A DNA stretch of 64,000 nt from the NCBI GenBank assembly GCA_030323305.1, contig CP106741.1, positions 2,232,501 through 2,296,500 of the forward strand. Direction: 5' to 3'. The stretch is from Paenibacillus sp. CC-CFT747 (lineage in GTDB: Bacteria; Bacillota; Bacilli; Paenibacillales; NBRC-103111). Both the position numbers and the translations under genes were made by a program. Below the pieces are notes generated by a model that saw nothing but the letters and a program-made list of their open reading frames with translations, was not told where the DNA came from and searched no databases. Of this stretch, positions 39,029-56,040 are shown one piece after another (positions within the stretch are counted from its first letter, which is position 1; every line of letters begins with the position of its first letter).

Positions 39029-39108
39029 ATTTTCCGATAGCCCGATCCCGGAAGCAGCTAAGCGGCGTTCGGCGTTCCCTTTTCCCGCTAATCTTTCCTA
39101 TGGTATAC

Positions 39109-39125
39109 TGTTTATTATATAAACA
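39109..39125 (+). promoter_or_regulatory. Putative TetR operator (autoregulatory)
   Basis: TGTTTAT-TAT-ATAAACA perfect inverted repeat, directly after a TATACT -10-like element and about 70 bases before the TetR gene. A closely similar site lies before the divergently placed MFS gene at 41650-41667. Confidence 0.7.
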
Positions 39126-39193
39126 CTTTTCGGGCGGCTGGGCTGCGATACCTGTATCCATTGCCGGCTTCGAATAACAGAGGGGAAAAGCGG

Positions 39194-40006
39194 ATGACCA
39201 AACCGGATTTCACTCCGGAAGAAGAGGAAGCGGCGAAGCGGCTCCCTGCCGGCGCGGCGCTTGGCTGGGGTTTGGTGAAGCCGCCGCAGCGCGGACCTAA
39301 GAGGGAGATGAGCCTAGAGCAAATCGTCCAGAAGGCGGTCGAAATCGCGGACAAGGATGGCTTAAATGCCGTCTCGATGAACCGGTTGGCGTCGGAGTTC
39401 GGCTTCTCGGCGATGGCGCTCTACCGCTATATTCCGAGCAAGGATGATCTGCTGCTCCTTATGCAGGACGCGGTTTGCGATATTCCGCTGCCGGAAGAGA
39501 GACCTGCCCACGAATGGCGCGAAAGTATGCGGGAATACGTGATGGCGACGATCGGCGTTTTTGTCGACCATCCCTGGTATGGAGACATCCCGATTTCCAG
39601 CCTGCCGATCCTGCCCAATACTTTGCGAATGGTGGATTGGGGGCTTCGGCCTTTGCGGGACATGCCCCTGGACGATTTCGAAAAAATGTCCATCGTTCTA
39701 CTCCTGAGCGGCTATGTCCGTTCCAGCGGAATGCTGAAGAGGGATATCCTCCGGGCGGTTCAGGCCGGTTCCAGTGAAGAAACGTTCAGCGGGCTCCATT
39801 ATTCGGCGGCGCTTCAAGCTCTGGTCAAGCCGGACTCCTATCCGAATCTGTATCCGATCGTCCTATCCGGCGTCTATACCGGAGAGAAGGAAAGCGAGAA
39901 TACCGTCGGCGATGACATTGATTTCGGCTTGGAGCGGATTCTGGACGGGATTGAGCAGTATTTGGACCGAAAAAAGGCCGGCCGATCGGACTCCAGCCGA
40001 GGGTAG
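39194..40006 (+). CDS. TetR-family transcriptional repressor
   Basis: About 270 residues, TetR with a C-terminal domain of the TetR_C (tetracyclin-repressor-like) type. HTH at about residues 40-85 (LEQIVQKAVEIADKDGLNAV, NRLASEFGFSAMALYRYIPS). ATG 39194 after AGAGGGG. It is convergent with an MFS efflux gene whose upstream region carries the same operator sequence, so it most likely represses both itself and the pump and is released by the pump's substrate. Confidence 0.9.
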   Translation: MTKPDFTPEEEEAAKRLPAGAALGWGLVKPPQRGPKREMSLEQIVQKAVEIADKDGLNAVSMNRLASEFGFSAMALYRYIPSKDDLLLLMQDAVCDIPLPEERPAHEWRESMREYVMATIGVFVDHPWYGDIPISSLPILPNTLRMVDWGLRPLRDMPLDDFEKMSIVLLLSGYVRSSGMLKRDILRAVQAGSSEETFSGLHYSAALQALVKPDSYPNLYPIVLSGVYTGEKESENTVGDDIDFGLERILDGIEQYLDRKKAGRSDSSRG

Positions 40007-40015
40007 GGGAAATAA

Positions 40016-40064
40016 GAAAAGACGACAGGGAAAGGCCGTGGCCTTTTCTCTGTCGTCTTTTTAT
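40016..40064. terminator. Bidirectional terminator between TetR and MFS genes
   Basis: Long stem AAAGACGACAG..AAAGGCC/GGCCTTT..CTGTCGTCTTT flanked by A and T runs, so it can act on both converging genes. Confidence 0.92.
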
Positions 40065-40079
40065 TTTAGCGGCCGCAGG

Positions 40080-40095
40080 CTAGTGCCTTATCCGG
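40080..40095. repeat. Solitary end of the 97-bp palindromic repeat
   Basis: CTAGTGCCTTATCCGG is identical to the terminal inverted repeat of the elements at 43109, 49539 and 54961. In the minus-strand direction it supplies the TAA stop codon of the MFS gene (GGATAAGGCACTAG). Confidence 0.7.
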
Positions 40096-41632
40096 CAGGG
40101 CTTATAACTTTCGTTTTCTCGCGGAGCATCACGGCCGTGGCGACCGAAGCCAGGAGCAGAATGACGCCGGCGGTGAGGCAGGTGACGTGCATGGCGGTCA
40201 TGAACGCTTCCCGGGAGGCTGTCATGACTTGACCCGCCGCTTCGGTTGGCAGCTGCTGGGAGGCGGCGGAGGCGCCCGCAATGGTTTGCCTGGCCGCGGA
40301 GGCGGCCTCCGGCGAGAGGCCGGGTGGCAGAAGGGGCGATACGGCATGGCGGTAGATCGCCGAGAGGACGCAGCCGAGAAGCGCGATGCCGAAGGCACCG
40401 CCGAGCTCGCTGGACGTTTCGAGGAGGCCCCCGACCGCTCCGGCCCGATCGGCCGGCGCCACCCCCACGACATAATCGGTGACGAGGGTCATGACGGACA
40501 CGATTCCGGCGGCAACCAGTCCGGCACCAACGAGCATGACCGTGAGCGGGGAGAAGCCTTCCAGCCGGACCTGGGTCAGGAGGACGAACCCGAATGCCGA
40601 CAGCACGAACCCGGCGGCCATGATGCGGGGCCTTCCGTGCGTAATCGAGAGCTTCGCGGCGACCGGCGCCGCCGCCCCGACGGCAACCGAGGGCAGAATG
40701 CTCCACAGGGCGGCCGCAAGCGGAGAGTACCCCAGTACCGATTGGAGAAACTGGGTGTTGACCAGGGCGCTTGCCATAAGCGTGAAGGTGGCGATCAGGT
40801 TAATGAGGATCGAGCCTCCGGTCCGCCGCTCCATCAGCGCACGGATATCGATTAAAGGGTTGGGGATCGTCCATTGACGCTTGACAAAGACAAAACCGAA
40901 GAACAAACCGGCGGCAAGCATCCCGGCAGGGAAGAGGGCCCAGCCCTCCTCGGCCAGTGTTTTGACACCGTAAGTTACGGGCAGGATGGCAAGAAGCGCA
41001 AGGAGCGAACTGAAAGCATCGATCCGGGTGCGGTCCGCGCTGCGGGATTCCGGGAGCAGGAAGGGGGCTGTCAGAAGCAGCAGCGCCATGGCGGGGAGGT
41101 TAAGGAGGAAAACCGAGCCCCAGGAATAGGCTTGAATGAGCAGGCCGCCGATAATCGGCCCGACCGTGACCCCGCCGGCCATGACGGCGCTCCAGACCGA
41201 CATCGCCTTGGTCCGCTGACCGGGGTCTTGGAACATGGTGCGGACGAGAGCCAGCGTCGACGGCATGAGGGTGGCTCCCGCTATGCCGAGAACGCCGCGG
41301 GCCACAATCAGGGATTCGGCCGTCTGGGAGAACGCGGCGAACAACGAGCACAGGGCAAATCCTACGGAGCCCAGCATCAACAGGCGCCGGCGCCCGATCC
41401 GGTCGCCAACGGCTCCCATGGTCAGCAGAAGTCCGGCAAGTACAAAGCCGTAAATGTCGAAAATCCATAATTGTTGGACGGCTGTCGGGCGCAAATCCGC
41501 GGCGATGTCGGGTGCGGCAAAGAACAGAACGGATACGTCCATCGAGACGATCATCAGGGGGAGACAGAGCACACCTAGTGCGATCCATTCTTTGCGTCCG
41601 GCCGGCTTGACGGCAGAGGGGGTGGTGGTCAT
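40088..41632 (-). CDS. MFS drug efflux transporter, DHA2 (EmrB/QacA) type
   Basis: 514 residues with fourteen predicted membrane helices. Motif A is GDRIGRRRLLMLGS and the DHA2-type first helix is LPLMIVSMDVSVLFFAAPDI. Relatives such as QacA and SmvA export cationic antiseptics and other drugs by proton antiport; the substrate here is inferred only from family. ATG 41632 follows AAGGAGAGG. The promoter region carries the TetR operator. The gene ends inside a repeat end at 40080-40095 that provides its stop. Confidence 0.92.
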   Translation of the reverse strand: MTTTPSAVKPAGRKEWIALGVLCLPLMIVSMDVSVLFFAAPDIAADLRPTAVQQLWIFDIYGFVLAGLLLTMGAVGDRIGRRRLLMLGSVGFALCSLFAAFSQTAESLIVARGVLGIAGATLMPSTLALVRTMFQDPGQRTKAMSVWSAVMAGGVTVGPIIGGLLIQAYSWGSVFLLNLPAMALLLLTAPFLLPESRSADRTRIDAFSSLLALLAILPVTYGVKTLAEEGWALFPAGMLAAGLFFGFVFVKRQWTIPNPLIDIRALMERRTGGSILINLIATFTLMASALVNTQFLQSVLGYSPLAAALWSILPSVAVGAAAPVAAKLSITHGRPRIMAAGFVLSAFGFVLLTQVRLEGFSPLTVMLVGAGLVAAGIVSVMTLVTDYVVGVAPADRAGAVGGLLETSSELGGAFGIALLGCVLSAIYRHAVSPLLPPGLSPEAASAARQTIAGASAASQQLPTEAAGQVMTASREAFMTAMHVTCLTAGVILLLASVATAVMLREKTKVISPAG

Positions 41633-41649
41633 GAATATCCTCTCCTTAC

Positions 41650-41684
41650 TGTGTATTATATAAACTGTAATTAATATACACAGT
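41650..41684 (-). promoter_or_regulatory. Putative TetR operator of the MFS gene
   Basis: TGTGTATTATATAAACTG (41650-41667) matches the site before the TetR gene at 14 of 16 core positions. A larger inverted repeat, ACTGTGTAT...ATACACAGT, spans the same region. Confidence 0.65.
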
Positions 41685-41779
41685 ATATGCAGTAAACAGT
41701 TATCGGTCAATACCCAAATTTCGTGGCATGAGAGGACACGGAACTCTACCGATTTTGGCAGGCAGGTGGGTTGAAAAAG

Positions 41780-41893
41780 ATGAACAGAACCAAGAGGGAA
41801 AAGGCCGCGCAGGAGGTCCTTATTGCCACGGAACGCCATGTTTTGCGCGGGGGCGCCGATAATGGTGTGTACGCCAAGAGGCGGGGGAGCTAA
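41780..41893 (+). CDS. Candidate 37-residue small protein
   Basis: MNRTKREKAAQEVLIATERH continues to VLRGGADNGVYAKRRGS and stops 37 bases before the next gene. It is basic and hydrophilic. The upstream GGTGGG is a weak, distant SD. No relative is recognised; it could be chance in a GC-rich stretch. Confidence 0.25.
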   Translation: MNRTKREKAAQEVLIATERHVLRGGADNGVYAKRRGS

Positions 41894-41930
41894 AATGGAG
41901 GCATAGAGTACAGATAAGAGGTGGGGGAGC

Positions 41931-42973
41931 ATGCGTGAAGTTGAAGTGGCTGTCGTTGGCGCGGGGCAGGCCGGACTGGCGGCAGGGTATTACCTACAGA
42001 AGAGGAAAGCATCCTTCGTTATCCTCGGACAGGAAGAGCGGGTGGGGGACAGCTGGCGGAACCGGTACGATTCTCTGCTGTTGTTCACCCCGAGGTGGTA
42101 CAGCGGCCTGCCCGGCGGGCCGCTTAGAGGGGAACGGAACGGCTATGCCTCTAAGGATGAGGTAGCGGATTACCTGGAAGGATACGCGAACTGCTGGAGG
42201 CTTCCGGTGGAGCTCGGGACGCAGGTTCAGACGATGGAGACGGCTGACCGGACTTTTCAACTTTCTACGAGCCGAGGCCTCTATAAGGCAAAGAAGGTCA
42301 TAGTGGCGACTGGCCCGTTCCAGAAGCCGTTCCTTCCGGAAATGGCGGGCGGCGTGTCCCGCGAGGTCTTCCAGCTGCATACGTCCGAATACCGGAATGC
42401 GGAGCAGCTGAAGAACGGGCCGGTTCTTGTAGTCGGTGCGGGCAATTCGGGCGCGCAGATCGCCGTGGAGCTGAGCCAGGGAAGGGAGCGGGAGGTCTAC
42501 TTGTCGGCCGGACACAAGCTGTCGATCTCCTCGCAGAAAATACTCGGGTTAAGTGTCTTCTGGTGGTTCCGGAGGCTGGGCCTTCTGCAAGCGTGGATAG
42601 GCCGGATGGTACGCGGCCGGGGTGAGCTGGTCTTCGATACGGGCCTCTCCGGCGCGCTGGCCGAGGGGACATCGTGCTGAAAGCACGCAGCACTCGGGCG
42701 GAAGGGCGAGCCTTCTGGTTCGAGGACGAAGTCGCTCCCGTGCAGATCTCCAATGTGATATGGGCCACGGGGTTTCAGAGCGATTACCGCTGGATTCAAG
42801 TTCATCAGGCGCTGAACCCATCGGGCATGCCCATCCACCGACAGGGAGAAAGCCCGGTCCAAGGGCTGTTCTACCTCGGCTTGCCCTGGATGCGCTGCCG
42901 GGCCTCCGCGCTGATCGGAGGAGTGGGGGTGGACGCAAGCTATTTCGTAGACCGCCTGTTTCGGCAGGGATAA
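41931..42973 (+). CDS. FAD-dependent flavin-monooxygenase-like protein (one frame break)
   Basis: About 347 residues: FAD motif VAVVGAGQAGLAAGYYLQKR, the WRNRYDSLLLFTPRWYSGLP segment typical of CzcO/YUCCA-like monooxygenases, NADPH motif VLVVGAGNSGAQIAVEL, and ATGFQSDYRWI near the end. Members oxidise N- or S-containing substrates or quench metals and electrophiles; the substrate is unknown. One G is missing near 42668 in GAGGGGAC. ATG 41931 lies after AAGAGGTGGGGG. Confidence 0.88.
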
Positions 42974-43108
42974 GAAGGGCCAGAAGGTTCACCGTGCGGC
43001 GGGTATCTGGTATAAAGAGCAGCGAAAAGCTTTCTCCAAGGCCAGCCGGAGGAAGAGGTTTTTTCCTACAGCAGGGCGGTCAGGGGCCCTTCCAACGGGT
43101 AATGGCTA

Positions 43109-43205
43109 CTAGTGCCTTATCCGTTAGTGTTGTTCGGCTTGCCTAATGATTTTTGCACGCCTACAGAGAGTTTCTCTCCAACAAAGTTACCGGATAAGGC
43201 ACTAG
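43109..43205. repeat. 97-bp palindromic repeat, copy A
   Basis: Bounded by perfect 15-bp inverted repeats CTAGTGCCTTATCCG and CGGATAAGGCACTAG. The internal sequence (reverse complement: TAACTTTGTTGGAGAGAAA... AATCATTAGGCAAGC) matches copies B and C in reverse orientation. It lies in the gap between the flavin monooxygenase-like and SseB-like genes. It has no coding capacity and looks like a MITE. Confidence 0.85.
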
Positions 43206-43238
43206 CAGGAGAGTGACAAGAAGAACGGGGGAACGGCC

Positions 43239-44611
43239 ATGGACGAAAGAAGACAAGAGGAACTCGTAAGGATGGTTAAGAGGGAGGCGGGGATCACCCC
43301 GGAGGAATGCAGCGGGTGGGACCTTCAGGAGCTTATTTTCCTGATTCACTCGGCCAAGTCCCTCCAAACCCAAGAGGCCCTGACCCAGGAGGAAAGGAAG
43401 CGCCGGATCCGTATCCTGATGGATGCCGTGAAGGATAAGCTCCTGCAGGCCGAGGAGCTGTACATTGCCTATGATGTCCATACGCGCTATCCGTACCTTG
43501 ACGCTAACGGACGGGTATGGATCTTTTCCAAGGAAGCCTATGCGCGGGAAGCCCAGGACTACTATTTGCAGCAGCTGATTCAGCTCGACATGAAGAGGAT
43601 GGACAAGGGGCAGCTTACGGGCGTGCTGGCAACCCTTCATCTGCTGGGCATGGAAAAGGTGCTCGTCGATAACGGGAAGTTTCATGTGGAGATCAGCCGG
43701 GACGAGCTGCTGCCTCCGCCGGATTGGAGCGGCACGCCCCGGATCAACATTCCGGTTACGAATCCGAAGCTGCAGCATGCAATGATTTTGTTTTTTCAGA
43801 ACCTGTATTCGAAAAGTAACTTCGAAGGAAAAAAGCAGCAGCTTCGGGTGTGGGAGGGCCTCATGATTGAGGAGGTTCTCCGGGCTTCTTATCTGGTTCC
43901 CATGCGGTTGATCGAGAAAGAACCCGATATTCCGGATGAGCAGGGCATCAAAACGATTCAGGCCGGAACGACCCTACAGTTTGCGACCATTCGGGGCGAG
44001 GACCAGGTCGAATGGCTCCCCGCGTTTACCGACTGGACGGAATTCGAGAAAGCCTATGACAAGACGGTTTGGGGTGGCAACGTCGTTTCCTATAAAGACC
44101 TGGTGGCTTTGTCGGAGGGCATGGGTGGGATTGTGATCAACGTAAGAGGGATAGCGTTCCGCATCCATGACAAGAACAAGAAGGCCATCGGAGCCTATCG
44201 GACGGAAAAAGCAGACTCCATGTCCGGAGGCGGACCGAAGCAGGAGGGGCAGTCAGGCACCAACAGGACGGGGGCGAATCCGGGCATGGAGCGGCTAGCC
44301 CGGGGAACCAGCCTGGGGCCTCCCGGGAGGATCCCGAGAAGCTGATCGAGGCGGTCAAAGCCTATATGAAGAAACAGAAGCGGATCCACAAAGCCTATTT
44401 AAAGCTTGGTACCCAAGACGGACGACAAAGCGTCCTAATCGTCGTAGACTATGAGGGAAGCCGGGAGGATCTGTTCCAGGGGATTGCGGAAGCGGCCTCT
44501 CCTTATTTGCAGGCAAGAGCCTTGGAGGTGAAAGGGCTGGCGGACGGGGCGTTTAACCCGGAAGAGGGGCTGCGGCTGTTCTATAAGCGCAAGCGGTTCG
44601 GCTTGTTTTAA
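43239..44611 (+). CDS. SseB-like two-domain protein (one frame break)
   Basis: About 457 residues. The central part (about residues 70-165, TRYPYLDANGRVWIFSKEAY) and (about 180-300, VPMRLIEKEPDIPDEQGI ... LQFATIRGEDQVEWLPAFTDW) resemble the SseB N-terminal domain. After a Gly/Gln-rich linker the C-terminal part (KKQKRIHKAYLKLGTQDGRQ ... LFYKRKRFGLF) matches the SseB C-terminal domain. SseB was named for enhanced serine sensitivity in E. coli; its role here is unknown. One base is missing in the linker, roughly 44250-44300. SD GGGGGAA precedes the ATG. Confidence 0.8.
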
Positions 44612-44633
44612 ACAGAACGGGGAGGGATTTCGG

Positions 44634-45061
44634 ATGAACCCGAGAATTACCGTGCTTACCCTGGGCGTGGAGGATTTGGAGAAGGCGGTCGCCTTCTACC
44701 GGGACGGGCTCAGCCTGCCGACGGAGGGAATCGTCGGGCAGGAGTTCGAGCATGGGGCGGTTGCTTTTTTGACCTGGAGGGAGGACTGCGGCTCGCTCTC
44801 TGGAAGCGGCGGGATCTTGCCCATGACACCGGACTTCCGGTGTCTCCGAAGAGTCCGACGGAGTTCTCTATCGGCCACAACGTAGGCAGCCGGGAAGCGG
44901 TCGACCGGGTGATGGCGGAGGTGGAGAAAGCCGGGGCCGTGGTGACGGTTCCGGCGCACGAGACGTTCTGGGGAGGATATTCGGGGTATTTTCAGGATCC
45001 CGACGGGCACCTGTGGGAAGTGGTCTGGAATCCTCAGTGGACGGTAGACGAGGAGGAGTAA
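44634..45061 (+). CDS. VOC/glyoxalase-like protein (one frame break)
   Basis: About 142 residues of the vicinal-oxygen-chelate fold: ITVLTLGVEDLEKAVAFYRD in the first beta-alpha unit and GYSGYFQDPDGHLWEVVWNP in the second. One T is missing near 44769; correction gives GAVAFFDLEGGLRLALWKRR. Members include lactoylglutathione lyase-like and antibiotic-binding proteins; the role here is not defined. SD GGGGAGGG precedes ATG 44634. 22 bases after the SseB-like gene. Confidence 0.85.
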
Positions 45062-45151
45062 GCGTGCGGGCCCATTTCTGTTCCCCGTCCAAAGGAACAG
45101 GAGCTTACGGTCAGCACGTCCGATGAACGCATAACGACAAGGAGTGGAGTT

Positions 45152-45813
45152 ATGAAATTATTGCTCACATCCGCAGGCATCCAAAACAAAAGCATACACG
45201 ACGCGCTGGTTGACATGCTGGGCAAACCGATTGCCGAGTCCAGCGCCCTCTGCATTCCCACGGCGGTGTACGCTATACCCGGTGGGGCGGGCCATGCATG
45301 GCGGTTCATCAGCGGACAAGGCACCACCCCGATGTGTGAGCTGGGCTGGAAGTCACTGGGGGTGCTGGAGCTCACCGCGCTGCCCAGCATTGACGAAGAG
45401 CTTTGGGTTCCTAGGGTCAAGGAGACGGACGTTCTACTAGTGGATGGCGGGGACCCCTTGTATCTGTATTACTGGATGCGGCATTCCGGACTGGCCGACC
45501 TCCTGCCTTCGCTGAATGCAGTCTATGTGGGACTGAGCGCCGGAAGTATGGTGATGGCACCTAACATCGGGGAATTCTTCGTTGGCTGGACTCCACCCAC
45601 TGGTGGCGATGAAACACTGGGACTGGTTGATTTTGCTATATTTCCGCATCTGGATCACGAGATGCTGCCGTATAACACGATGGCTGCTGCAGAGAGATGG
45701 GCCGCCGGGATGCAGGGGCCGGCGTATGCGATGGATGACCAGACCGCCATTAAAGTGATCGATGGGGCTGTCGAAGTTGTTTCCGAAGGGAATTGGAAAC
45801 TTTTTCGCCCTGA
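45152..45813 (+). CDS. Peptidase E-like (S51) aspartyl dipeptidase (probable frame break near end)
   Basis: About 220 residues: KLLLTSAGIQNKSIHDALVD, the serine-nucleophile elbow YVGLSAGSMVMAPNIG, and LVDFAIFPHLDHEMLP, the pattern of peptidase E-like proteins that cleave Asp-X dipeptides. As read, the frame runs on to 45928 into the next gene with foreign-looking sequence. Adding one T in the T5 run at 45801-45805 would end it at TGA 45811-45813 after EGNWKLFSP, the usual family C-terminus, and free the SD of the next gene. I therefore give 45813 as the likely end. Confidence 0.8.
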
Positions 45814-45854
45814 TCTTACTCCGTTGTTAACCTATTCGAGGAGGGGAAACCGAA

Positions 45855-46310
45855 ATGAAGACGATCAAGTGCATGATGGACCACCTGTACTGGGCAAACG
45901 CACGCATTTTGGACGCGCTCGTCGATAGTAAGACGAAGAACAAGGACCTTCTGAAGCTGGTTCGGCACGTCGCGATCGCAGAACGAGTCTGGCTGTCCCG
46001 CTTGCAGGGCAAGGGAACCGCGCAATATTCGTTGTGGGAGGAAGCGGAAGACCTGACGGCGATCCGGACGATGTTCGAGGAAAACGCCGAGCAATATCGA
46101 GTCTATATGGAAGGGCTCGAGGAATCCGAGTTGGACGAGATGGTCGACTATGCGAGCCAGAGCGGAGTTCCGTTCCGAACGTCCGTCCGGGACATCCTGC
46201 TTCAGGTCCTCTTGCATGGGCAATATCACCGGGGACAGATCAACCGGGCCCTTCGGATCGAATCGGCAGAGCCTGCTCAAGTCGATTACATCACATTCGC
46301 GAGGCTTTAA
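45855..46310 (+). CDS. DinB-family protein
   Basis: 151 residues of the four-helix DinB/YfiT fold with the three metal-binding histidine positions seen in HLYWANARIL, LVRHVAIAERVWLSRLQG and LLHGQYHRGQINRAL. Members are often thiol-dependent transferases (bacillithiol in Firmicutes), which is possible here. SD GAGGAGGGG precedes ATG 45855. The 18-base gap to the convergent MFS gene has no terminator. Confidence 0.9.
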   Translation: MKTIKCMMDHLYWANARILDALVDSKTKNKDLLKLVRHVAIAERVWLSRLQGKGTAQYSLWEEAEDLTAIRTMFEENAEQYRVYMEGLEESELDEMVDYASQSGVPFRTSVRDILLQVLLHGQYHRGQINRALRIESAEPAQVDYITFARL

Positions 46311-46328
46311 GAAGGCCAAACTTTAAAA

Positions 46329-47510
46329 TTATATGGCTGATCCTGAAAATGTCCTTTTCCGGGCGAGAGTGAAGCTCCAGAGGGCCGCACCGAGACCGGC
46401 GGTGACGAACAGGCAGGCGAGCCAAGGATTGAACCGGACGGTAGAGGCGGTGTTAATCATCCAGCCTCCCGTTCCCGCGCCCGTAGCCAGGCCCAGGTGT
46501 ATGATCGATGTATTCAAGCTGAGGACGAGTCCGTTTGAATCCGGAGCTTGCTGGATGAAATAGGCTTGAACGGCCGGACCTGTCATGAACATGAGAAGCA
46601 TTAGGAGGACAATCAGCGCTAGGCCAGCGCCCCTAGACCCGGAGAATAGGGGCAGGAGGGCGAGGGCGGCGGCGTTAAGCGCCACGCCTAAGACAATGAT
46701 CCGCATCGGTCCCCAACGGTCGACACCGTACCCCCCGAGCCGGGAGCCCGCGGCCCCGAACAGGCCGAGCACGAGCATGAACAAGCTGATGCCGGAAGGG
46801 TTCATGCGGTAAATGTCTTGAAGATAAGAGGTTAAATAGGTGAGAAGGATGGAGCCTCCGGATTCCCGGAACAAGGAGAAGAGAAGTCCGGTTCCGATGA
46901 CGAGGCTTCCGAGTACCTTCAGCTGCTGCCGGAAGGGGACGGGGGTCTCTCCCGCGCTGGACGGAAACAGACGGAGCATGGCGGCGGCTACCCCCAGGGC
47001 GGCCAGTGCCAGGACGAGGAAGATGGACCTCCAGCCGGCCCAGCCGGTCAGGGTGATTCCGATCGGTACGCCGAGAATCATGGAGCAGCTGAAGCCGAAG
47101 ATGATGGTGCCGATGGCGCGGCCCAGCCGTTCGGGCGGTACGAGACGGGCCGCCGTTCCGAAGGACGTCACCAGATAAACACCGGCGCTGACCCCCAGGA
47201 TAACCCGGCAGGCCAGCAGGAAGGAATAGCCGGGAGCGAACGAAGAGGCAAGGCAGCCCGCGATGAAGAGCAGCAGGGACCCCGTCAGCACCAGGCGGCG
47301 GTCCAGCCGGGAGGTAAGAGCCGTTACGATAGGCGTGCCGATGGCAAAAGCAAGGGAGAAGGCGGTGACCAGCTGACCGGCGGAGGCGACGGAAACCGTC
47401 AAGTCTTCCGCGATTTGCGGAAGGATGCCGGATACCACCAGCTCGGAGGTTGCCGTGAAGAAGACACCTAAGGTGAGCAAATAAACGGATAAAGCCGCGT
47501 GGCGATTCAT
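46329..47510 (-). CDS. MFS transporter, DHA1 (AraJ/YdhP) type
   Basis: About 393 residues and twelve membrane segments: LLTLGVFFTATSELVVSGIL in helix 1, the motif-A region ALTSRLDRRLVLTG, and SMILGVPIGITLTGWAGWRS. Related to arabinose/sugar and drug exporters; the substrate is unknown. ATG 47510 after GGAAAGGAAG is preferred to longer frames. Divergent from the HxlR-type regulator, with a palindrome in the shared intergenic region. Confidence 0.9.
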   Translation of the reverse strand: MNRHAALSVYLLTLGVFFTATSELVVSGILPQIAEDLTVSVASAGQLVTAFSLAFAIGTPIVTALTSRLDRRLVLTGSLLLFIAGCLASSFAPGYSFLLACRVILGVSAGVYLVTSFGTAARLVPPERLGRAIGTIIFGFSCSMILGVPIGITLTGWAGWRSIFLVLALAALGVAAAMLRLFPSSAGETPVPFRQQLKVLGSLVIGTGLLFSLFRESGGSILLTYLTSYLQDIYRMNPSGISLFMLVLGLFGAAGSRLGGYGVDRWGPMRIIVLGVALNAAALALLPLFSGSRGAGLALIVLLMLLMFMTGPAVQAYFIQQAPDSNGLVLSLNTSIIHLGLATGAGTGGWMINTASTVRFNPWLACLFVTAGLGAALWSFTLARKRTFSGSAI

Positions 47511-47622
47511 AAACAATCTTCCTTTCCCGGTCTTAACTCGACCTTTTGTTTGGATTATAATCAAGTTACGAACCTTTCGTAAGAAGGCAAATGATTTGGC
47601 GATTATCCAACTAAATGGATTT

Positions 47623-47639
47623 ACTTACTAATAGTAAGT
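47623..47639. promoter_or_regulatory. Putative HxlR operator
   Basis: ACTTACT-AAT-AGTAAGT perfect inverted repeat between the divergent MFS and HxlR genes, 22 bases before the HxlR start. HxlR-family regulators of Bacillus (YodB, HypR) bind similar TACT/AGTA repeats. Confidence 0.65.
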
Positions 47640-47660
47640 TAAAAGACGGAGGGATGGGCC

Positions 47661-48080
47661 ATGCAAGAATCGGCAAGGAAGGAACCGGCTAAGAATACAT
47701 CGTTGAAGGAGCCGGCCGGGAAAGATACGATCTTGAAGGAACCGGGGCAGGAGCCGGAATTCACCCACATCTGCTCGGTGCTGCAAATTTTGGGGGCTAA
47801 ATGGTCGTTTCTGGTGATCGCCGAGCTGTCCAAAGGGCCCAGGAGATTCAACCGGCTTCACCGCGATCTGGCGATCGTGAGAACCCAATCGCTTACCGAC
47901 GTTCTGCGGCACTTGGAGGAGCACGGGGTCATCCGGCGGGAAGTATTCCCTACGGTACCGGTGACAGTGGAGTACTCCCTGACGGAGAAGGGAAGGGATT
48001 TTCAGGCGGCGCTGAAGGAGCTCGACAAGTGGGCTTTGAAGTGGGGAAGCGGAGGGGAAGGATCGCAAGGCAACCGATAA
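47661..48080 (+). CDS. HxlR-family transcriptional regulator
   Basis: 139 residues: a winged helix (CSVLQILGAKWSFLVIAELS, RFNRLHRDLAIVRTQSLTDV, VPVTVEYSLTEKGRDF) with a Cys just before it (THICSVLQIL) at the position that senses electrophiles or oxidants in YodB/HypR relatives. The first ~35 residues form an unusual degenerate repeat (KEPAKNTSL, KEPAGKDTIL, KEPG) rich in Lys/Glu/Pro. Likely controls itself and the divergent MFS exporter. Confidence 0.9.
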   Translation: MQESARKEPAKNTSLKEPAGKDTILKEPGQEPEFTHICSVLQILGAKWSFLVIAELSKGPRRFNRLHRDLAIVRTQSLTDVLRHLEEHGVIRREVFPTVPVTVEYSLTEKGRDFQAALKELDKWALKWGSGGEGSQGNR

Positions 48081-48286
48081 AAGTCGGAGTACCGAATTGG
48101 GCTGCCATTAGGATGGCAAATTCACGTCGAGGGCCATGGGAAATGTCCCGGAACACCATCCGCTGGCCCCTAAAGTAACGCTTCTACGGCGAAAAGTCCC
48201 TAAGCCGCCGCGAGGCTGACGGGAGAGGGCAGGTTATCGGGCAGCGATGGGGTACCATAAGGAAGACAACGAAGGGGGCATACGCC

Positions 48287-48978
48287 ATGGAAGCCAAACA
48301 AGCAGCAGGCACCGAAGCCGCGCGTTATGTGGAGAGCGGGATGAAGCTCGGCCTCGGCACCGGGTCGACCGTCTATTGGACGATCCGGGAGCTGGGCCGC
48401 CGGGTGCGGGAAGAAGGGCTCCGGGTGGAGGCGGTTCCGACCTCGCTAGAGACGGAGAAGCTGGCACGGCAGGAGGGGATTCCCCTGATCGCTCCGCGGG
48501 AGGTGGCGGGAAGGCTTGATCTCGCCATAGACGGAGCGGATGAGGTGGACCCGGCGCTCCATTTGATCAAGGGCGGAGGCGGCGCCTTGCTGCGGGAGAA
48601 GCTCATAGCGGCTAACGCGGAACGCTTTATTGTGACGGCGGATTCTTCCAAATGCGTGGAGAAGCTGGGCCGGTTTCCCCTTCCGGTGGAGGTCGTGCCG
48701 TTTGCATGGGAATGGACGCAGCGGCGGCTGGAGCTTCTCGGGGAACTTCCCGGCTTCGCTTAACGAAAGACAGCGGGGAAGAGCCTTACCGGACGGATAA
48801 CGGCAACTATGTGCTGGATTGTGCGTTTGGGGAGATATCCGATCCGGCTGCTATGAACCGGTCTCTGCTGGAAATTCCGGGTGTGGTGGAGAACGGCTTG
48901 TTTATCGGTCTCGCGGAGAGGGCGGTCATCGGATACACAGACGGTTCCACGAAAATGTTAAGGGCCGAAAAGCTTTAA
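48287..48978 (+). CDS. rpiA: Ribose-5-phosphate isomerase A (one frame break)
   Basis: About 230 residues; interconverts ribulose-5-phosphate and ribose-5-phosphate in the pentose-phosphate pathway. Motifs: LGLGTGSTVYWTIRELG, LAIDGADEVDP, LIKGGGGALLREKLIA, and YVLDCAFGEISDPAAMN in the second half. One base is missing near 48741 in CTCGGGGAAC; correction gives TSRLRLTKDSGEEPYRTDNGN. Monocistronic, SD GAAGGGGG. Confidence 0.93.
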
Positions 48979-49011
48979 ACCCTTAATCGTTAACAGGCGA
49001 AAACAAGGGGC

Positions 49012-49052
49012 TTGACAAAGAGCCTCAAACGTATTATCTTTAATTTAAGATA
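49012..49052 (+). promoter_or_regulatory. Promoter and MhqR-like operator of the MarR gene
   Basis: TTGACA (49012-49017), 17-base spacer, TATCTT -10. The -10 is the left arm of the palindrome TATCTT-TAATTT-AAGATA (49035-49052), so a bound repressor would block RNA polymerase. The same arms recur before the dioxygenase gene. Confidence 0.8.
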
Positions 49053-49089
49053 TTCGTCAATCGACGGAAGGAACCGGGAGGTGAGGGAC

Positions 49090-49542
49090 ATGGCGAACTA
49101 TCCGCTGGATGAAGAGCAGGCCGCTTCGCTTAAGCTTTTTGTCATCTTGTCCAAGGCTTACAAGACGCTCATGGATCACGCCGTGAAGGATATCCGTCAG
49201 TATGGCGTTTCCTCTTCGGAATTTGCCATTCTGGAGGTATTGTACACGAAAGGCCGGATTCCTCTTCAGCAGATCGGCGAGAAGGTTCTGATCACAAGCG
49301 GGAGCATCACGTATAACATCGACAAGCTCGAGAAGAAAGGGCTGATGAAGCGGGTGCCCTGCCCGGAAGACCGCCGGGTGACCTACGCGGAGATCAGCGA
49401 GACCGGGAGGCAGTGGTTCGATGAGATCTTTCCGGGGCATGCCCAGGCTATCCATGAGAGGATGCAGGGGCTGACCTTGGAAGAGAAGACTGAGTCGGCC
49501 GAGCTTCTGAAGAAGCTGGGCAAGGCGGCAGGCAAGGGCTAG
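49090..49542 (+). CDS. mhqR: MarR-family repressor, MhqR-like
   Basis: 150 residues, winged-helix MarR fold (VSSSEFAILEVLYTKGRIPL, QQIGEKVLITSGSITYNIDK, wing RVPCPEDRRVTYAEIS). Similar in pattern and context to Bacillus MhqR, which represses hydroquinone/quinone detoxification genes; here a ring-cleaving dioxygenase and an esterase follow with the same operator. ATG 49090 after GGGAGGTGAGGG. The TAG stop is formed by the end of repeat copy B, so the natural C-terminus may have differed by a few residues. Confidence 0.85.
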   Translation: MANYPLDEEQAASLKLFVILSKAYKTLMDHAVKDIRQYGVSSSEFAILEVLYTKGRIPLQQIGEKVLITSGSITYNIDKLEKKGLMKRVPCPEDRRVTYAEISETGRQWFDEIFPGHAQAIHERMQGLTLEEKTESAELLKKLGKAAGKG

Positions 49543-49635
49543 TGCCTTATCCGGTAGCTTGGTTGGTGAGAAAGCTTCCTTATGGGCACTATAATCAATA
49601 GGGAAGCAGAGCATCATTTGCGGCTAAGGCATGGG
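49539..49635. repeat. 97-bp palindromic repeat, copy B
   Basis: Starts with the intact CTAGTGCCTTATCCG end and finishes with a degenerate copy of the other (CGGCTAAGGCATGGG). The interior TTGGTGAGAAA and AATCAATAGGGAAGC correspond to copies A and C. Its first bases provide the stop codon of the MarR gene. It separates regulator and target operon. Confidence 0.75.
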
Positions 49636-49760
49636 TTCCGATAACGTCGACTTCATAAAAGACGAAAGCCCCGCTCCTGCGGGAGCCAAGCACAGAGGGA
49701 ACACGGATGGATGAAAGGGATTCTGCCGAAGCAAGGCAGGACGCCCAATCGTCTGCCTTA

Positions 49761-49778
49761 AATCTTAAATTAAAGATT
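49761..49778 (+). promoter_or_regulatory. MhqR-like operator of the dioxygenase operon
   Basis: AATCTT-AAATTA-AAGATT, arms matching the site at 49035-49052. It lies 22 bases before the dioxygenase start. Confidence 0.75.
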
Positions 49779-49800
49779 CTTTAATCAAAAGGAGATGGAA

Positions 49801-50754
49801 ATGATGACACTTCAAACCGCAGGTATCCACCACATCACGGCTTTTGCCAGTGATCCGCAAGCCAACGTCGAGTTCTATGCAGGCATACTGGGGCTTCGCC
49901 TCGTTAAAAAAACGATCAATTTCGATGCGCCGGAGGTTTATCATCTCTATTTCGGGAACGAATCCGGCGGCCCCGGTACGATCATCACCTTCTTCCCATG
50001 GCCGGGGTCCCGGAAGGGCCGCATCGGAGGCGGGCAGGTGGGAACCACCACCTATGTCGTTCCTCCCGGTTCCTTCTCCTTCTGGAAAGAGCGGCTCGAA
50101 GGCTTCGGCCTGACGGTGGAAGAGACCACCCGTTTCGGCGAGACCTTCCTGCAGTTCCGGGATAACGAAGGGCTTCAGCTTGAGCTCGTGGAGCGGGAGG
50201 AAGGGCCGTTAAGCGGCTGGAGCTTCGGCGGCATCCCGGCGGAGCATGCCATCAAAGGCTTCGGGGGCGCGGTGCTGTACAGCGTGAACCCGGCCGTGAC
50301 GGCGGACGTGCTGCAGAATGTTCTGGGCCTCGTTCCGGCCGGGGAGGAGAACGGCTTCGCCCGTTTCGAGGCGCCGGGGGAACTCGGCAACCGCATCGAT
50401 CTTCCTTTGGAGGCGATGGATTGGGGAGCCGGAGGAGCCGGAACCGTCCACCATATTGCGTGGCGGGCCAAAGATTATGAAGAGCATGCCGAGTGGCAGG
50501 CCTTCGCGGAAAGCCGCGGATTAAGGCCTACGACGATCATCGACCGGCAGTATTTCCACGCGGTGTATTTCCGGGAAGGCGGCGGCATCCTGTTCGAGAT
50601 CGCGACGGATCCTCCCGGGTTCGCCGTCGATGAACCGGCGGAAGAGCTGGGCTCGCGCCTGATGCTTCCGGAGTGGTATGAGCCGCAGCGTGACCAGATC
50701 GAAGCCAATCTGCTGCCGATCGAAGTAAGAGTACCGGAGGAGGGAAGGAAATGA
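49801..50754 (+). CDS. Ring-cleaving (VOC) dioxygenase, MhqO/MhqA-like
   Basis: About 317 residues made of two VOC modules: GIHHITAFASDPQANVEFYA with the first metal His, and TVHHIAWRAKDYEEHAEWQA and YFHAVYFREGGGILFEIATD with the second His and the Glu. This is the pattern of type I extradiol dioxygenases of the MhqA/MhqO/MhqE group that degrade quinones and hydroquinones. ATG 49801 is chosen because AAAGGAG lies seven bases upstream; the ATG at 49795 is too close. Overlaps the next gene by ATGA. Confidence 0.92.
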   Translation: MMTLQTAGIHHITAFASDPQANVEFYAGILGLRLVKKTINFDAPEVYHLYFGNESGGPGTIITFFPWPGSRKGRIGGGQVGTTTYVVPPGSFSFWKERLEGFGLTVEETTRFGETFLQFRDNEGLQLELVEREEGPLSGWSFGGIPAEHAIKGFGGAVLYSVNPAVTADVLQNVLGLVPAGEENGFARFEAPGELGNRIDLPLEAMDWGAGGAGTVHHIAWRAKDYEEHAEWQAFAESRGLRPTTIIDRQYFHAVYFREGGGILFEIATDPPGFAVDEPAEELGSRLMLPEWYEPQRDQIEANLLPIEVRVPEEGRK

Positions 50755-51359
50755 AGCATCTTTATCAGCAAGGAACGGATCCACAAGCCCCTACGCTAGT
50801 TCTGCTGCACGGGACGGGAGGGACGGAGCGGGACCTGCTCCCGCTTGCGGAGCTTCTCTCTCCCGGCTCCTCCTTCCTCAGCCTGCGAGGGAACGTGCTG
50901 GAGAACGGAATGCCGCGGTTCTTCCGGCGGCTGGCCGAAGGAGTCTTCGATGAAGAGGATCTCGTTTTCCGCACCCAGGAAACGAACGACTTCCTTGGGG
51001 AAGCGGCCGGGCGTTACGGCCTGGATCGCAGCCGGTTTGTAGCCGTCGGCTATTCCAACGGGGCGAATCTCGCCGGCAGCCTGCTGTTCCATCACCCGCA
51101 GGCACTGATGGGAGCCGTGCTGCACCACCCCATGGTGCCGCGGCGGGGCGTTACGCTTCCCGATCTGACGGGGACACCCGTCTTCATCGGGGCCGGCGTG
51201 AACGACCCGATCTGCCCGGCGGAAGAGACCGCCGAGCTGGAGGGGCTTCTCTCCGGCGCCGGGGCCGAGGTGTCCGTCCACTGGGAGCGGGCGGGGCATC
51301 AGCTGACGGCCACGGAAGCGACAGCCGCAGCGGCGTGGTTCCGCGAGCGGTTTCAGTAA
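50751..51359 (+). CDS. Alpha/beta hydrolase (carboxylesterase), MhqD-like
   Basis: 202 residues. Oxyanion motif LLHGTGGTERDLLPLAE, nucleophile Ser102 in VGYSNGAN, acid in GAGVNDPICP and His in WERAGHQLT complete the triad. It matches the phospholipase/carboxylesterase family members paired with ring-cleaving dioxygenases in mhq operons, where they are thought to act on ring-opened products. Start overlaps the dioxygenase stop (ATGA), indicating coupled translation. Confidence 0.92.
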   Translation: MKHLYQQGTDPQAPTLVLLHGTGGTERDLLPLAELLSPGSSFLSLRGNVLENGMPRFFRRLAEGVFDEEDLVFRTQETNDFLGEAAGRYGLDRSRFVAVGYSNGANLAGSLLFHHPQALMGAVLHHPMVPRRGVTLPDLTGTPVFIGAGVNDPICPAEETAELEGLLSGAGAEVSVHWERAGHQLTATEATAAAAWFRERFQ

Positions 51360-51410
51360 CCGGACGCTCCCGCGATCTCGCCGGCAGGCGGACCCTGAAC
51401 ACATAACAAC

Positions 51411-51461
51411 GCAAAAAGCGGCAGCCTGGACAGAAAAGTGTCCAGAGCCTGCCGTTTTTTT
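51411..51461 (+). terminator. Terminator of the mhq-like operon
   Basis: Long stem CGGCAG-C-CTGGACA with TGTCCAG-AGC-CTGCCG, then seven T residues. Confidence 0.92.
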
Positions 51462-51554
51462 GCTGTCTTTTGGCGATGGACACGGTAACCCATCCTCAAT
51501 CAGCAGGCAAATTTAGGGTTGACGATGCGCGAATGAACATGGTAACCTTCTAAC

Positions 51555-51575
51555 TGATAATAATTATCATTATCA
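51555..51575 (+). promoter_or_regulatory. Fur box before the iron importer
   Basis: TGATAATAATTATCATTATCA, nearly identical to the classical 19-bp Fur consensus of overlapping TGATAAT/ATTATCA units. It lies 25 bases before the binding-protein start, so the importer should be derepressed when iron is scarce. Confidence 0.9.
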
Positions 51576-51599
51576 ATAAGAGGCAAGGGGAGATGGATT

Positions 51600-52684
51600 G
51601 TGTACATAAGAAAGAAGCTGGCTCCTATTCTAAGCTTGGCGCTTACAGCCGGGCTGCTGGCGGCCTGTGGAGCCGGACCGACGGAGGAGAAGAAAACGGG
51701 AGCAGCCGCGGAGCCGTCGGCCACGGCCAAAACGGGAGCGGTTAACGTCTATTCGGCCAGAACTTATGAGGTGGATGACAAGCTGTACGCCGACTTCCAG
51801 ACCAAGACGGGCATCAAGGTTAACGTGATTAAAGGAAAGGCCGAAGAGCTGATCGAACGGATGAAGCGGGAGGGCCAGAATACGCAGGCCGATCTCTTCG
51901 TCACGGTGGACGGCGGGGTGCTTAACAATGCGAAAAAAGCGGACGTGCTCCAGCCGATGGACTCCGAGGTCTTGAAGGCGAATGTACCGGCCGGCCTGCG
52001 AGACAAGGATAACCACTGGGTAGGGCTGTCGACGCGTGCCCGCGTTCTGGTGTATGCGAAGGACCGGGTCAAGCCGGAGCAGCTGTCGACGTATGAAGAC
52101 CTCGCTTCCGACAAATGGAAAGGGAAACTTCTTGTGCGTTCCTCGACCAGCACCTACAACCAGTCCCTGCTCGCTTCCCTGATTGAACTGGACGGAGAGG
52201 CGAAGGCGGAGGAATGGGCGAAGGGAGTGGCGGCCAACCTGGGACGTGCGCCCGAAGGCGGGGACCGTGACCAGGCCAAAGCCGTCGCAGCGGGAAGCGG
52301 CGATATCGCCATCATGAATACTTATTATTACGGCCAGCTGCTGAACTCCAAGGATCAGGAAGAGGTCAAGGTGGCCCAATCGCTGGGCGTGTTCTTCCCT
52401 AACCAGGCAACGACCGGAACCCATGTGAACATTAGCGGGGCGGGGCTTTCCAAATACAGCAAGAACAAAGAGAATGCCATTAAGCTGGTTGAATATTTAA
52501 CGGGTGAAGAAGCCCAGGCGGTTACCTCCGCCGAGAACTTCGAATTCCCGGTCAATCCGAAAGCGAAGAAGCCGGAGCTGCTGCAGTCGTGGGGCGATTT
52601 CAAGACGCAGCAGATCGATTATGCCAAGCTGGGGAGTACAACGGAAAGGCGATCGAGATCTTTAATAAAGTGGGTTGGAAGTAG
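51600..52684 (+). CDS. Ferric-iron ABC importer binding lipoprotein (one frame break near end)
   Basis: About 361 residues. Lipobox LLAAC with Cys23 and a short linker, then a periplasmic-binding-protein fold of the FutA/FbpA iron group: VNVYSARTYEVDDKLYADFQ, DLFVTVDGG and the tyrosine cluster NTYYYGQ (about residue 240) that coordinates Fe(III) in relatives. One G is missing near 52636; correction gives LGEYNGKAIEIFNKVGWK ending at TAG 52682-52684. GTG start after AAGGGGAG. Preceded by a Fur box. Confidence 0.92.
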
Positions 52685-54330
52685 ATGATGCCGGGTCTCA
52701 AGCGTAAGCTTACTATTCATGGAAACGGCTGGCTCGCGGTCAGCCTGGCGGGGGCGGCGGTCGTAGCGCTGCCCCTTCTGTACATCATGACGGCTTGGGT
52801 GCAGCCTCCGAACGACAATTGGCTGCAGATTCGCCGGTACCTGCTGAAGGACTACTTGACCGATACCGTTATCCTCGTGTTCTTCAGCTGCTTGTTCGCG
52901 GCCATGCTGGGTGTGGCGCTCGCTTGGTTTGTGGCTGCCTTTGATTTTCCGCTGAAGCGGTTCTTCCGCTGGGGCCTGATGCTGCCGCTGGCCGTTCCGC
53001 CCTATATTGCGGCTTTCACCTATGGGAACATGTTCAGCTACACGGGAACGGTTCAGAAGGCCCTGCGCGCCATCGGCATCACCCCGAACCCCGTGCTGAT
53101 GGATATGCTGTCCATGCGGGGAGCGGTGTTCATCTTCACCTTCTTTTTATACCCGTACGTGTATATGATCGCCCGGGCCTTTCTGGAGAAACAGAGCGCT
53201 TCTTATATCGAAAATGCCCGGCTCCTCGGCAAAAGCCCACTAGCGGTCTTCTTCCAGATCGTGCTTCCTTTGTCCCGTCCGGCCATGACGGGAGGCGTCA
53301 TGCTTGTCCTGTTCGAGGTGCTGGGGGATTATGGAGTCACGAGCCATTTTGGCATCCGCACCTTCTCCACTGCGATCTTCCAGACGTGGTTCGGGATGTA
53401 CGACGCCGATTCCGCCATGCGGCTCGCCTCCTGGCTGATGCTCGGAGTGGCTGCCCTGTTCGGGGCGGAGCGCCTCTTCCGGCGCCACCGGTCCTTTCGC
53501 GTCGTTAACAGCCGAACCCGCCCGCTGATGCCTGTGCGTTTACACGGATGGCGCGCAGGTCTGGTCGTGTCGCTGTGCGGCCTGGTGGCGGCCGTATCCT
53601 TCGTCATCCCCGTCACCCAGCTGATCGTATGGGCCGGCTGGACGTACGAGACGGTTCTGAATGCGGGCTTCGTGCGCCTTGCCTGGAACACGGTTACGCT
53701 TGCGCTGGCCGCTTCGGTGATCGTCATGCTGCTGGCTGTCATCGCCGCGGAGGCGCTGCGCCCGCACAAGGGAGGCTTCGGCTTCGCCGTCTCCCGGGTG
53801 CTGATTGCCGGCTACTCCATCCCGGGGGCGATTGTCGCGATCGGGGTGCTCGGGCTGTTCCTGCTCCTGGACCGAGCGGCCGCCGGGCTCTATGCCGCCT
53901 GGGGGCTCGCCGTTCCCCGCCGGTGCCGAGCCTGACTGTCACGATGCTGGTCTTCGCCTACGTCGTGCGCTTCCTCGCGGCCGGCTACAATGCCGCCGAG
54001 GCCGGGATGGAGCGGATCGGCCCCCGGTATGCGGAGGCGTCCCGGGTGCTCGGCCTGGCCCGGACCCGGACCTTTCTCCGGGTGGAGCTGCCGCTCCTCC
54101 GGGGAGCGCTCCTGGCGGGCTTCCTGCTGACCTTCGTCGAGGTCGTGAAGGAGCTTCCTCTCGCGCTGCTTCTGCGCCCTTTTAACTTTGAAACGCTGGC
54201 GACCCATGCTTATCAGTATGCGGGGGATGAGCGGATACACGAAGCCTCGCTGCCGTCCCTGTTCATTATCGGAATCAGCCTGGCTTCGGTGCTTGTGATC
54301 CAGAAGGCGGGGAAGGAGAGAAGAGAATGA
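52685..54330 (+). CDS. Ferric-iron ABC importer permease, fused two-domain (one frame break)
   Basis: About 548 residues containing two permease units of about six helices each, as in FbpB/FutB. Each carries an EAA-type loop (SYIENARLLGKSPLAVFFQI; PRYAEASRVLGLARTRTFLR). One base is missing near 53915 in a C run; correction gives AVPPPVPSLTVTMLVFAYVV. Its ATG directly follows the binding-protein stop and its stop overlaps the ATPase start, so the three genes are one coupled operon. Confidence 0.92.
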
Positions 54331-54964
54331 GCTTTGTAACCATTGAGGGATTGTCGTTCGCCTACGGGGAAGCCGGAACCGCGTCTTGGACGGCTTCAGC
54401 CTGTCCCTGGAGCAAGGGGAGGTAGCGGCGGTGCTCGGCCCGAGCGGGCAGGGCAAAAGTACCCTTCTGCGCCTGATCGCCGGGCTGGAGATTCCGGCGG
54501 AGGGCTCCATTGCGGTCGGCGGGGTGACGCTGGTGGACGAGAGGACCTTCCTGCCTCCCGAGAAGCGGGGAGTCGGCATGGTATTCCAAGATTACTCGCT
54601 GTTTCCGCACCTGACGGCGGCCCGGAACATCACCTTCGGGCTTCACCGGATGAGCCCGAAGGAAAGGGCGGTCCGGCTCCGGGAGATGCTCGAGCTCGTC
54701 CGGCTGACCGGCTGCGAGGCGCGTTATCCTCACGAGCTGAGCGGCGGCCAGCAGCAGCGTGTGGCGCTTGCCCGGGCACTCGCGCCCGGACCGCGCCTGC
54801 TGCTTCTGGACGAGCCTTTCAGCTCTCTTGATGCCGAGCTTCGGGCGAGCATCCGCTCCGAGCTGAAGGCCATTCTCGCCCAAGCCGGCATGACGTGCCT
54901 GGTCGTCACCCATGACCGGGCCGACGCAGAATCGATCTGCTCCCGCGTGGTGACGGTGGGCTAG
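54327..54964 (+). CDS. Ferric-iron ABC importer ATPase (one frame break; 3' end in repeat)
   Basis: About 212 residues: Walker A GPSGQGKST, Q-loop VFQDYSLFPHL, signature LSGGQQQRVALARAL, Walker B LLLLDEPFSSLD, and switch VVTHDR. One base is missing near 54378; correction gives NRVLDGFSLSLEQGEVAAVLG. It ends SRVVTVG with TAG supplied by repeat copy C, and lacks the C-terminal regulatory domain present in many FbpC proteins. Either a naturally short form or truncated by repeat insertion. Confidence 0.9.
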
Positions 54965-55056
54965 TGCTTTATCGGTAACTTTGTTGGCGAGAAAACCTCT
55001 GGATGCGCACGAAAATCAATAGGAAAGCAGAACAGCCCTTACGGATAAGGCACTGA
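54961..55056. repeat. 96-bp palindromic repeat, copy C
   Basis: CTAGTGCTTTATCGG ... ACGGATAAGGCACTGA with interior GTAACTTTGTTGGCGAGAAA and AATCAATAGGAAAGCAGAACA, the same as copies A and B. Its first bases give the ATPase gene its stop codon. Between that gene and a convergent phosphotransferase gene. Confidence 0.82.
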
Positions 55057-55072
55057 AGCGGCGGACGGCGGC

Positions 55073-56040
55073 TCAGGCGGCGCCGTGCTCGAGGCAGCTG
55101 AGCAGGGCCCGGAGGGCTTCCTCCCGCTGGAGCAGAAGCAGGCTGCGGTCCCAGTCCCCGCCCTCGAGGTCCCGGTCGATGAGCAGCAGGAACCAGGCGG
55201 AGTACAGGCAGGCGAACCGGTCGTAAGCCGCGAAGAGGGCTTCCTCGGCCCCTGCGCCTCCGGCCGGGTTCCGCTCCTGCTCGTAGAGCCGGAGCAGGTC
55301 GTAGCGCCTTAGCCCGAGGTCCGTCCGGCGGAACGACGGATGGGTCATGTCCAGCAGGCAGTACAGGTCCCAAAGGGACTGTTCAGCTGGACATGCTCCC
55401 AGTCGAGGATGACGGCTTCGCCGTCCAGCAGCGCGACGTTGCCGATGTGCAGGTCGCCGTGGCTCACGACTTGCTCGTCAGGGAGGGAGGCGGCCTGCCC
55501 GGCCAGGCGGTAAAGCTTGGCGATCCGCTCCGCGGAGACGCCCTGCTCCGCCAGCAGCCGGGTGAGGCGGCTTCGTTCGCGCGCCAGGACGGAGAGGACC
55601 TCGGGCAGCAGGGGCTTCTGGCCGGCGTACCCGGCCGGGACGATCGCGGCCGGCAGCCGCTGCCAGGAGGAGACGTGGCGCACCGCGTGGGCGAGTACGT
55701 CGAATTCACCGGCGTGCGACAGGCTTCCGGCGTCCTCCAGGATGATCCAGTACGTGGCCGGATCTTCATGGGCCGCTTCGGCCAGCAGCCGGGGGTAGCG
55801 GAAGCGGAGCCGGGGCAGGAGCTCCCGCTGCGCCCAGCGCTCCCGCCCGAGCAGCTCCTCGTTGGTAAGCGGCTTGAAGATGCAGGAGGCCTCTTGGCCG
55901 TGCAGGCGGAAGCGCTCGATCGTCTTGCCGTTCGGGCTGCGGTAAATCGGCTCGCGTGCGGTGACCAGACCGTCCAGCAGCAGGTGGTCCGCTCCAACCG
56001 CCCGGTGGAACAAGGCAGTGTCCATTTCGTTCATCCCCAT
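55073..56040 (-). CDS. APH/choline-kinase-family phosphotransferase (one frame break)
   Basis: About 322 residues. Kinase-like fold with EASCIFKPLTNEELLGRERW in the N lobe, the catalytic VSHGDLHIGNVALLDGEAVI (His-Gly-Asp-x3-Gly-Asn) and the metal Asp in LDWEHVQ. Substrate could be a small alcohol, sugar or aminoglycoside; nothing indicates antibiotic resistance specifically. One base is missing near 55375; correction gives LNSPLWDLYCLLDMTHPSFR. Minus strand, after the iron operon. Confidence 0.85.

Follow-up and report, generated by a model that had tools for sequence, protein, structure and literature searches.

The palindromic repeats that recur within a 64,000-nucleotide stretch of the Paenibacillus sp. 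CC-CFT747 genome (the window) very probably form a family of non-autonomous, TA-targeting MITEs that are moved in trans by a transposase of the IS630/Tc1-mariner type. The window occupies positions 2,232,501-2,296,500 of a 6.22 Mb genome (G000), which we compared with that of a second, conspecific strain (G046); both are single contigs, 90.65% and 99% complete, respectively. An initial annotation of the window had described three copies, the first inverted relative to the other two, and both their positions and their orientations held up: copy A (43109-43205, minus strand, full length), copy B (49539-49635, plus strand, full length) and copy C (54961-55056, plus strand, 96 bp). All three have orthologues in G046, at 355285-355381 (96.7% identity), 361909 (97.8%) and 367333 (92.4%), respectively. 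A fourth site had been overlooked: a deleted remnant at 40080-40095 (plus strand) that retains the left TA, the 12-bp repeat and one further base, and at which G046 carries a full copy (L080).

The element proper is 91 bp long (GTGCC...GGCAC), ends in GTGCCTTATCCG...CGGATAAGGCAC and is flanked by a duplicated TA. These 12-bp terminal inverted repeats lie inside the element, as expected of a MITE. The 15-bp end that the initial annotation had taken as the repeat is actually composed of a C, the TA and the 12-bp repeat, where the TA is the duplicated target and the outer C/G belongs to the flank. In the window, this 15-bp end has 8 matches at up to 3 mismatches, compared with 1.33 expected in shuffles; it is exact at both ends of copy A and at the left end of copy B, whereas each end of copy C carries 2 mismatches and the right end of copy B (CGGCTAAGGCATGGG) more than 3. 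Copy A proper spans 43112-43202, with TA duplications at 43110-43111 and 43203-43204. In copy B (49542-49632) the left TA is at 49540-49541 and the right-hand duplication has decayed to GG, and in copy C (54964-55053) the left TA is at 54962-54963 and the right duplication reads TG. Among 91 copies read in G000, 57 carry a 3' variant of the TTCATTTG type and 26 one of the AACACTCA type, with 8 unassigned; several shorter copies are internally deleted palindromes. Tandem copies sharing one common junction were seen at L014 (G000 1315966-1316156) and L043 (1792104-1792290), the latter with a single copy in its place in G046, and at L003:2995-3091 a copy is inserted next to an older end-like remnant, and one end of this copy matches the target's own GCTCC (chance or conversion possible).

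A BLAST search of G000 with copy B returned 41 matches, and a covariance model made from 42 copies raised the count to at least 128 (E≤0.01), a lower bound because 150 of the 1,897 candidates were scored; 107 of these matches are 85 bp or longer and 21 are shorter. The same model found at least 120 copies in G046 (150 of 1,841 candidates scored). The end motif occurs 213 times in G000 at up to 2 mismatches, compared with 14 for a reversed control, and 111 times in each strain at up to 1 mismatch. It was not enriched elsewhere, with at most 3 matches (up to 1 mismatch) in each of the other 390 of 392 order genomes, which sample a larger group evenly; 104 family genomes were also covered. The covariance model gave no match at E≤1e-4 in 38 other relatives, a set that does not include G046. 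Plasmid and phage collections yielded no match and viral contigs none, in collections that may omit records near the window, and named genomes had no match to two exact patterns (a set that may have the same omission). The family has so far been seen in one bacterial species only. The MITE reading of the initial annotation, which had looked to further copies in the genome and to strains lacking a copy, is borne out: the copies are many, have terminal inverted repeats and no protein-coding capacity, stay below 200 bp (91 bp plus the duplication), include internally deleted derivatives and show a target duplication when empty and occupied alleles are compared. The alternative offered there, an unusually large REP-like element, gained no support, and the TA duplication speaks against it; REP palindromes are paired with a RAYT (Y1) transposase in REP/REPIN systems.

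The comparison of alleles between strains identified the target duplication as TA. We checked 91 G000 copies for alignment of both flanks within one fetched stretch of G046, and 61 aligned. Nine single copies were cleanly absent from G046 (432119, 508781, 541244, 848329, 1254157, 1399501, 2758468, a 65-bp form, 5465688 and 6052039), which gives no rate of absence because the choice of G046 stretches had mostly favored places with a predicted absence. The remaining aligned rows are mostly occupied in both strains, apart from a few in which an internal deletion, the number of tandem copies or a rearrangement of the flanks sets the strains apart; the count of empty sites excludes two tandem rows (1792104/1792197). 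In the reverse comparison, 50 of 76 G046 copies had G000 context, and we found an extra tandem copy at 4542175, a remnant at 348836 and a copy at 5364865 shortened in G000; this comparison is blind to empty G000 sites, as the G000 loci had been fetched around G000 copies. Each empty G046 allele lacks the element plus one TA, leaving a 4-bp NTAN where G000 has NTA...TAN, and the centre of the empty site is TA in eight of nine cases and CA in one (2758468). The flanks also reveal a preference for CTAG: C-TA-G is the commonest flank, present in 15 of 26 copies with an intact TAG...CTA. An IS630-associated composite transposon reportedly prefers the TA in 5'-CTAG-3', according to the title of a 1991 paper by Tenzen and Ohtsubo.

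This flank would also suit a mobile unit TGCC...GGCA that is moved by an IS5-type transposase and makes a 4-bp CTAG duplication, and a precedent exists in the 100-nt MITEPsy1 of Pseudomonas syringae, described in the cited passages as duplicating CTAG or YTAA (PMC3189936). We consider this reading barely credible, and it was rejected on the empty sites, which contradict it at three targets: TTAG at 5465688 (occupied TTA-G...C-TAG), CTAA at 1399501 (occupied CTA-G...C-TAA) and CTAC at 432119 (occupied CTA-G...C-TAC). Had 4 bp been duplicated, the outer base would also be present twice at these targets. Only TA is repeated; therefore the duplication is TA, the inner G and C belong to the element, and the element is GTGCC...GGCAC. 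In addition, the profiles DDE_Tnp_1 and DUF4096 were unmatched in G000 and G046.

Whether the nine sites record insertions in G000 or precise losses of old copies from G046, by slippage between flanking repeats or by transposase excision, affects the direction of change only; the element is a TA-type MITE in either case. We regard loss as a serious possibility, if somewhat short of an even one. For the eight polymorphic copies of full length, the closest sibling has an identity of 0.81-0.93 in G000 (among the 92 of 107 full-length copies that were read) and of 0.82-0.93 in G046 (among 82 of 92), and sibling pairs reach 0.95 once in G000, in a tandem, and never in G046; this comparison drew on 102 of the 128 copies in G000 and 85 of the 120 in G046, and excluded the 65-bp copy 2758468. 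The G000 values resemble those of 36 shared copies (median 0.857) despite flanks that are 94.8-99.4% identical between strains (89.6% to the left of 432119), as loss of old copies would predict. The duplicated TA is altered at 848329 and 1254157, and internal deletions differ between the strains (L028/L091, L054/L089), both of which also favor loss. On the other hand, all nine losses would need to be exact and footprint-free, and the polymorphic copies have somewhat better-preserved terminal repeats than 41 shared copies (3.6% vs 7.1% changed, permutation p=0.07), which would fit recent mobility. New insertions would be expected to have closer sources, and precise losses some scars; the polymorphic copies, which lack a close sibling, do not distinguish gain from precise loss.

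The initial annotation had placed the repeats at gene 3' ends. This is exact for copies B and C, where the left TA and the first base of the element form the TAG stop of a MarR-like ORF (49012-49542; stop at 49540-49542) and of an ABC-transporter ATPase ORF (stop at 54962-54964), respectively; it fails for copy A, which is not on a stop codon and lies 33 bp upstream of an ORF with an SseB-like domain (43239-44345; Pfam PF07179). At the 40080 remnant, the minus-strand MFS transporter ORF (40088-41932) has its terminal TAA within the remnant (GCC GGA TAA), and G046 reads GCC GCC TAG at the duplicated TA. As listed, this ORF overlaps by two bases a flavoprotein-like ORF on the plus strand (41931-42680), the pair spanning 40088-42680 of the window. 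Among the 91 copies, 17, including B and C, sit exactly on the stop of the flanking gene, the duplicated TA plus the first element base giving TAG, and 1 lies inside a called gene (calls for these counts came from our own simple codon-usage caller). The element starts with G whichever strand is read, so when it enters the TA of a stop codon, TAA or TAG, the result is a TAG stop and an unaltered protein; at 5465688, the gene's strand has TAA in the empty allele and TAG in the occupied one. At the same loci, CTAG sites outside the repeats fall inside genes in 100 of 229 cases, and the non-coding ones are stop codons in 16 of 129 (12.4%; CTAG-like sites, 67 of 561, 11.9%). Compared with this target preference, the stop-codon placement (17/90) is a marginal excess (p about 0.04-0.05); compared with all TA sites it is pronounced (p=1e-5). 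Target preference plus avoidance of genes mostly explains the placement at 3' ends.

Once in place, copies accumulate substitutions and internal deletions near-neutrally. Orthologous copies in the two strains are 82-99% identical (median 94.5%, 36 pairs). In 41 orthologous pairs, change amounted to 55/1062 in the terminal repeats and 173/2617 in the interior (Fisher p=0.11), with 308/8113 in the 100-bp flanks. Both sets of pairs were hand-picked (omitted rows with context include 1407462, 1753137, 2633200 and 1787399), and for the later counts they were restricted to flank-confirmed pairs, as synteny by spacing had given some wrong ones. Between 71 G000 copies, divergence from the consensus was 8.3% in the repeats and 16.7% in the interior. 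The columns counted as repeat in these divergence figures contain, at either side, one that is not palindromic (16/82). The repeats are thus conserved between copies yet receive little protection in place, a pattern that fits a role in movement alone.

These data bear on the idea that the repeats are kept at gene ends as functional RNA or DNA elements, such as a terminator, an mRNA-stabilising hairpin or a regulatory site, which we judge very unlikely. Some single copies do fold well, with z scores of -6.4/-7.2 for copy A and -4.0/-5.6 for the L004 copy (copy B, -1.7/-0.8; copy C, -2.2/0.2), and the stop-codon position of 17 copies could be taken in the same sense. However, the consensus fold of the alignment retains 9 terminal pairs only, change in place (5-7%) is not below the 3.8% of the 100-bp flanks, nine copies are missing from the other strain, and stop-codon placement is near the target-site expectation of about 12%. 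Evidence for covariation in the terminal repeats was unconvincing, with 10 complementary double changes where shuffles averaged 4.5 and reached 11. Rfam covariance models gave no match at E≤0.5 in window positions 39000-56000, and a conserved RNA was rejected on this result, the terminal-only consensus fold and the unreduced change in place. Between 42800 and 55400, a sigma-70 scan gave 8 sites (shuffle mean 3.8), with a promoter-like match inside copy B (49566-49595), and a terminator scan gave 16 (shuffle mean 13.3), with a terminator-like match inside copy C (55035-55051).

The mobiliser is missing or unrecognised by four transposase profiles. PF13358 (DDE_3, IS630/Tc1), PF13340 (DUF4096) and PF01609 (DDE_Tnp_1) had no match at E≤0.01 in G000 or G046, and NF033545, run on G000, gave one sub-threshold match, in the first ORF of an IS3-like element. 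This element, labelled from its ORFs, was rejected as the parent since its ends differ from those of the MITE. Its two copies (L038:1394-2664 and L090:16423-17696; 27-bp ends beginning TGATATTATCC) are 99% identical and lie in different places in the two strains; it is probably a recently active insertion sequence. The PF13358 profile works in the family, since it matches in 48 of 104 family genomes. Among many more such matches, we examined 30 PF13358 loci from relatives, and none is bounded by the MITE ends: four (L160, L169, L176 and L186) have one isolated end-like 12-mer each (up to 2 mismatches), no locus has such 12-mers on both sides of the gene, and a scripted scan found no TA-flanked inverted repeat in roughly half of the loci. 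The transposase-bearing parent with the same ends for which the initial annotation had hoped was not found in G000, G046 or these loci.

We assign the mobiliser to the IS630 type because of the TA duplication and the CTAG preference, and not from a parent element. Acting in trans, such a transposase would bind the 12-bp terminal repeats (GTGCCTTATCCG), excise the 91-bp element and insert it into a TA, preferably within CTAG, with duplication of the TA; we infer the transposase family, the mobilisation in trans and the cut-and-paste mode. Where the targeted TA belongs to a TAA or TAG stop, the stop would be regenerated as TAG, which, together with selection against insertion inside genes, would leave copies at gene 3' ends, and near-neutral decay would follow. 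Against this reading stand the absence of a PF13358 gene from either strain, the one CA among nine empty sites, and polymorphic copies without a near-identical sibling, unlike a recent burst. The family may instead still be mobile with no recognisable IS630, IS4/IS5 or DUF4096 transposase, through an unrecognised TA-specific enzyme, or by hopping and precise removal of copies that persist as long-lived private lineages with intact repeats and no close siblings; we think this unlikely.

The MITE family has parallels in print. ISY100, of the IS630 family (the Tc1/mariner superfamily of bacteria), is described in the cited passages as inserting almost exclusively at TA, with duplication, as the MITE does (PMC2170065); IS630/ISY100 encodes a transposase, whereas the MITE does not, and its ends were not found around the 30 PF13358 loci examined in relatives. 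A close likeness is seen in RUP of Streptococcus pneumoniae, reported to be about 107 bp long with terminal repeats and TA at its ends (PMC3049150, PMC2229807) and to exceed 100 copies (110 in ATCC 700669), comparable to the number here (PMC3049150). By the printed sizes RUP is set apart by its length and 9-bp repeats, and it has a proposed mover, IS630-Spn1, whose repeats its own resemble (PMC3049150, PMC2229807), whereas no parent was found here. Correia/NEMIS elements of Neisseria (about 107 and 155 bp) share the TA ends, target duplication and empty-site evidence, and differ, as the cited text describes them, in 24-bp repeats, an IHF site and putative promoters (PMC2229807). MITEPsy1, similar in size and in insertion at CTAG or YTAA, is reported to make a 4-nt duplication and to have ISPsy2-like ends (IS5 family) (PMC3189936). 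BOX elements of S. pneumoniae likewise supply a 3'-end stop codon, in 36 of 58 overlapped genes according to the cited passage (PMC3049150), and are modular and of other sequence. In the open-licence literature, we found no paper that prints the MITE ends and none on a Paenibacillus MITE.

Taken together, these results describe a new family of an established kind, comparable to RUP and Correia. It adds a MITE family of RUP-like copy number with presence/absence polymorphism between two strains, and its placement at gene 3' ends is explained without invoking function, by a G-initial element that re-forms TAG at TA on either strand. With the transposase missing and the strains polymorphic, the question of who moves an orphan MITE becomes testable.
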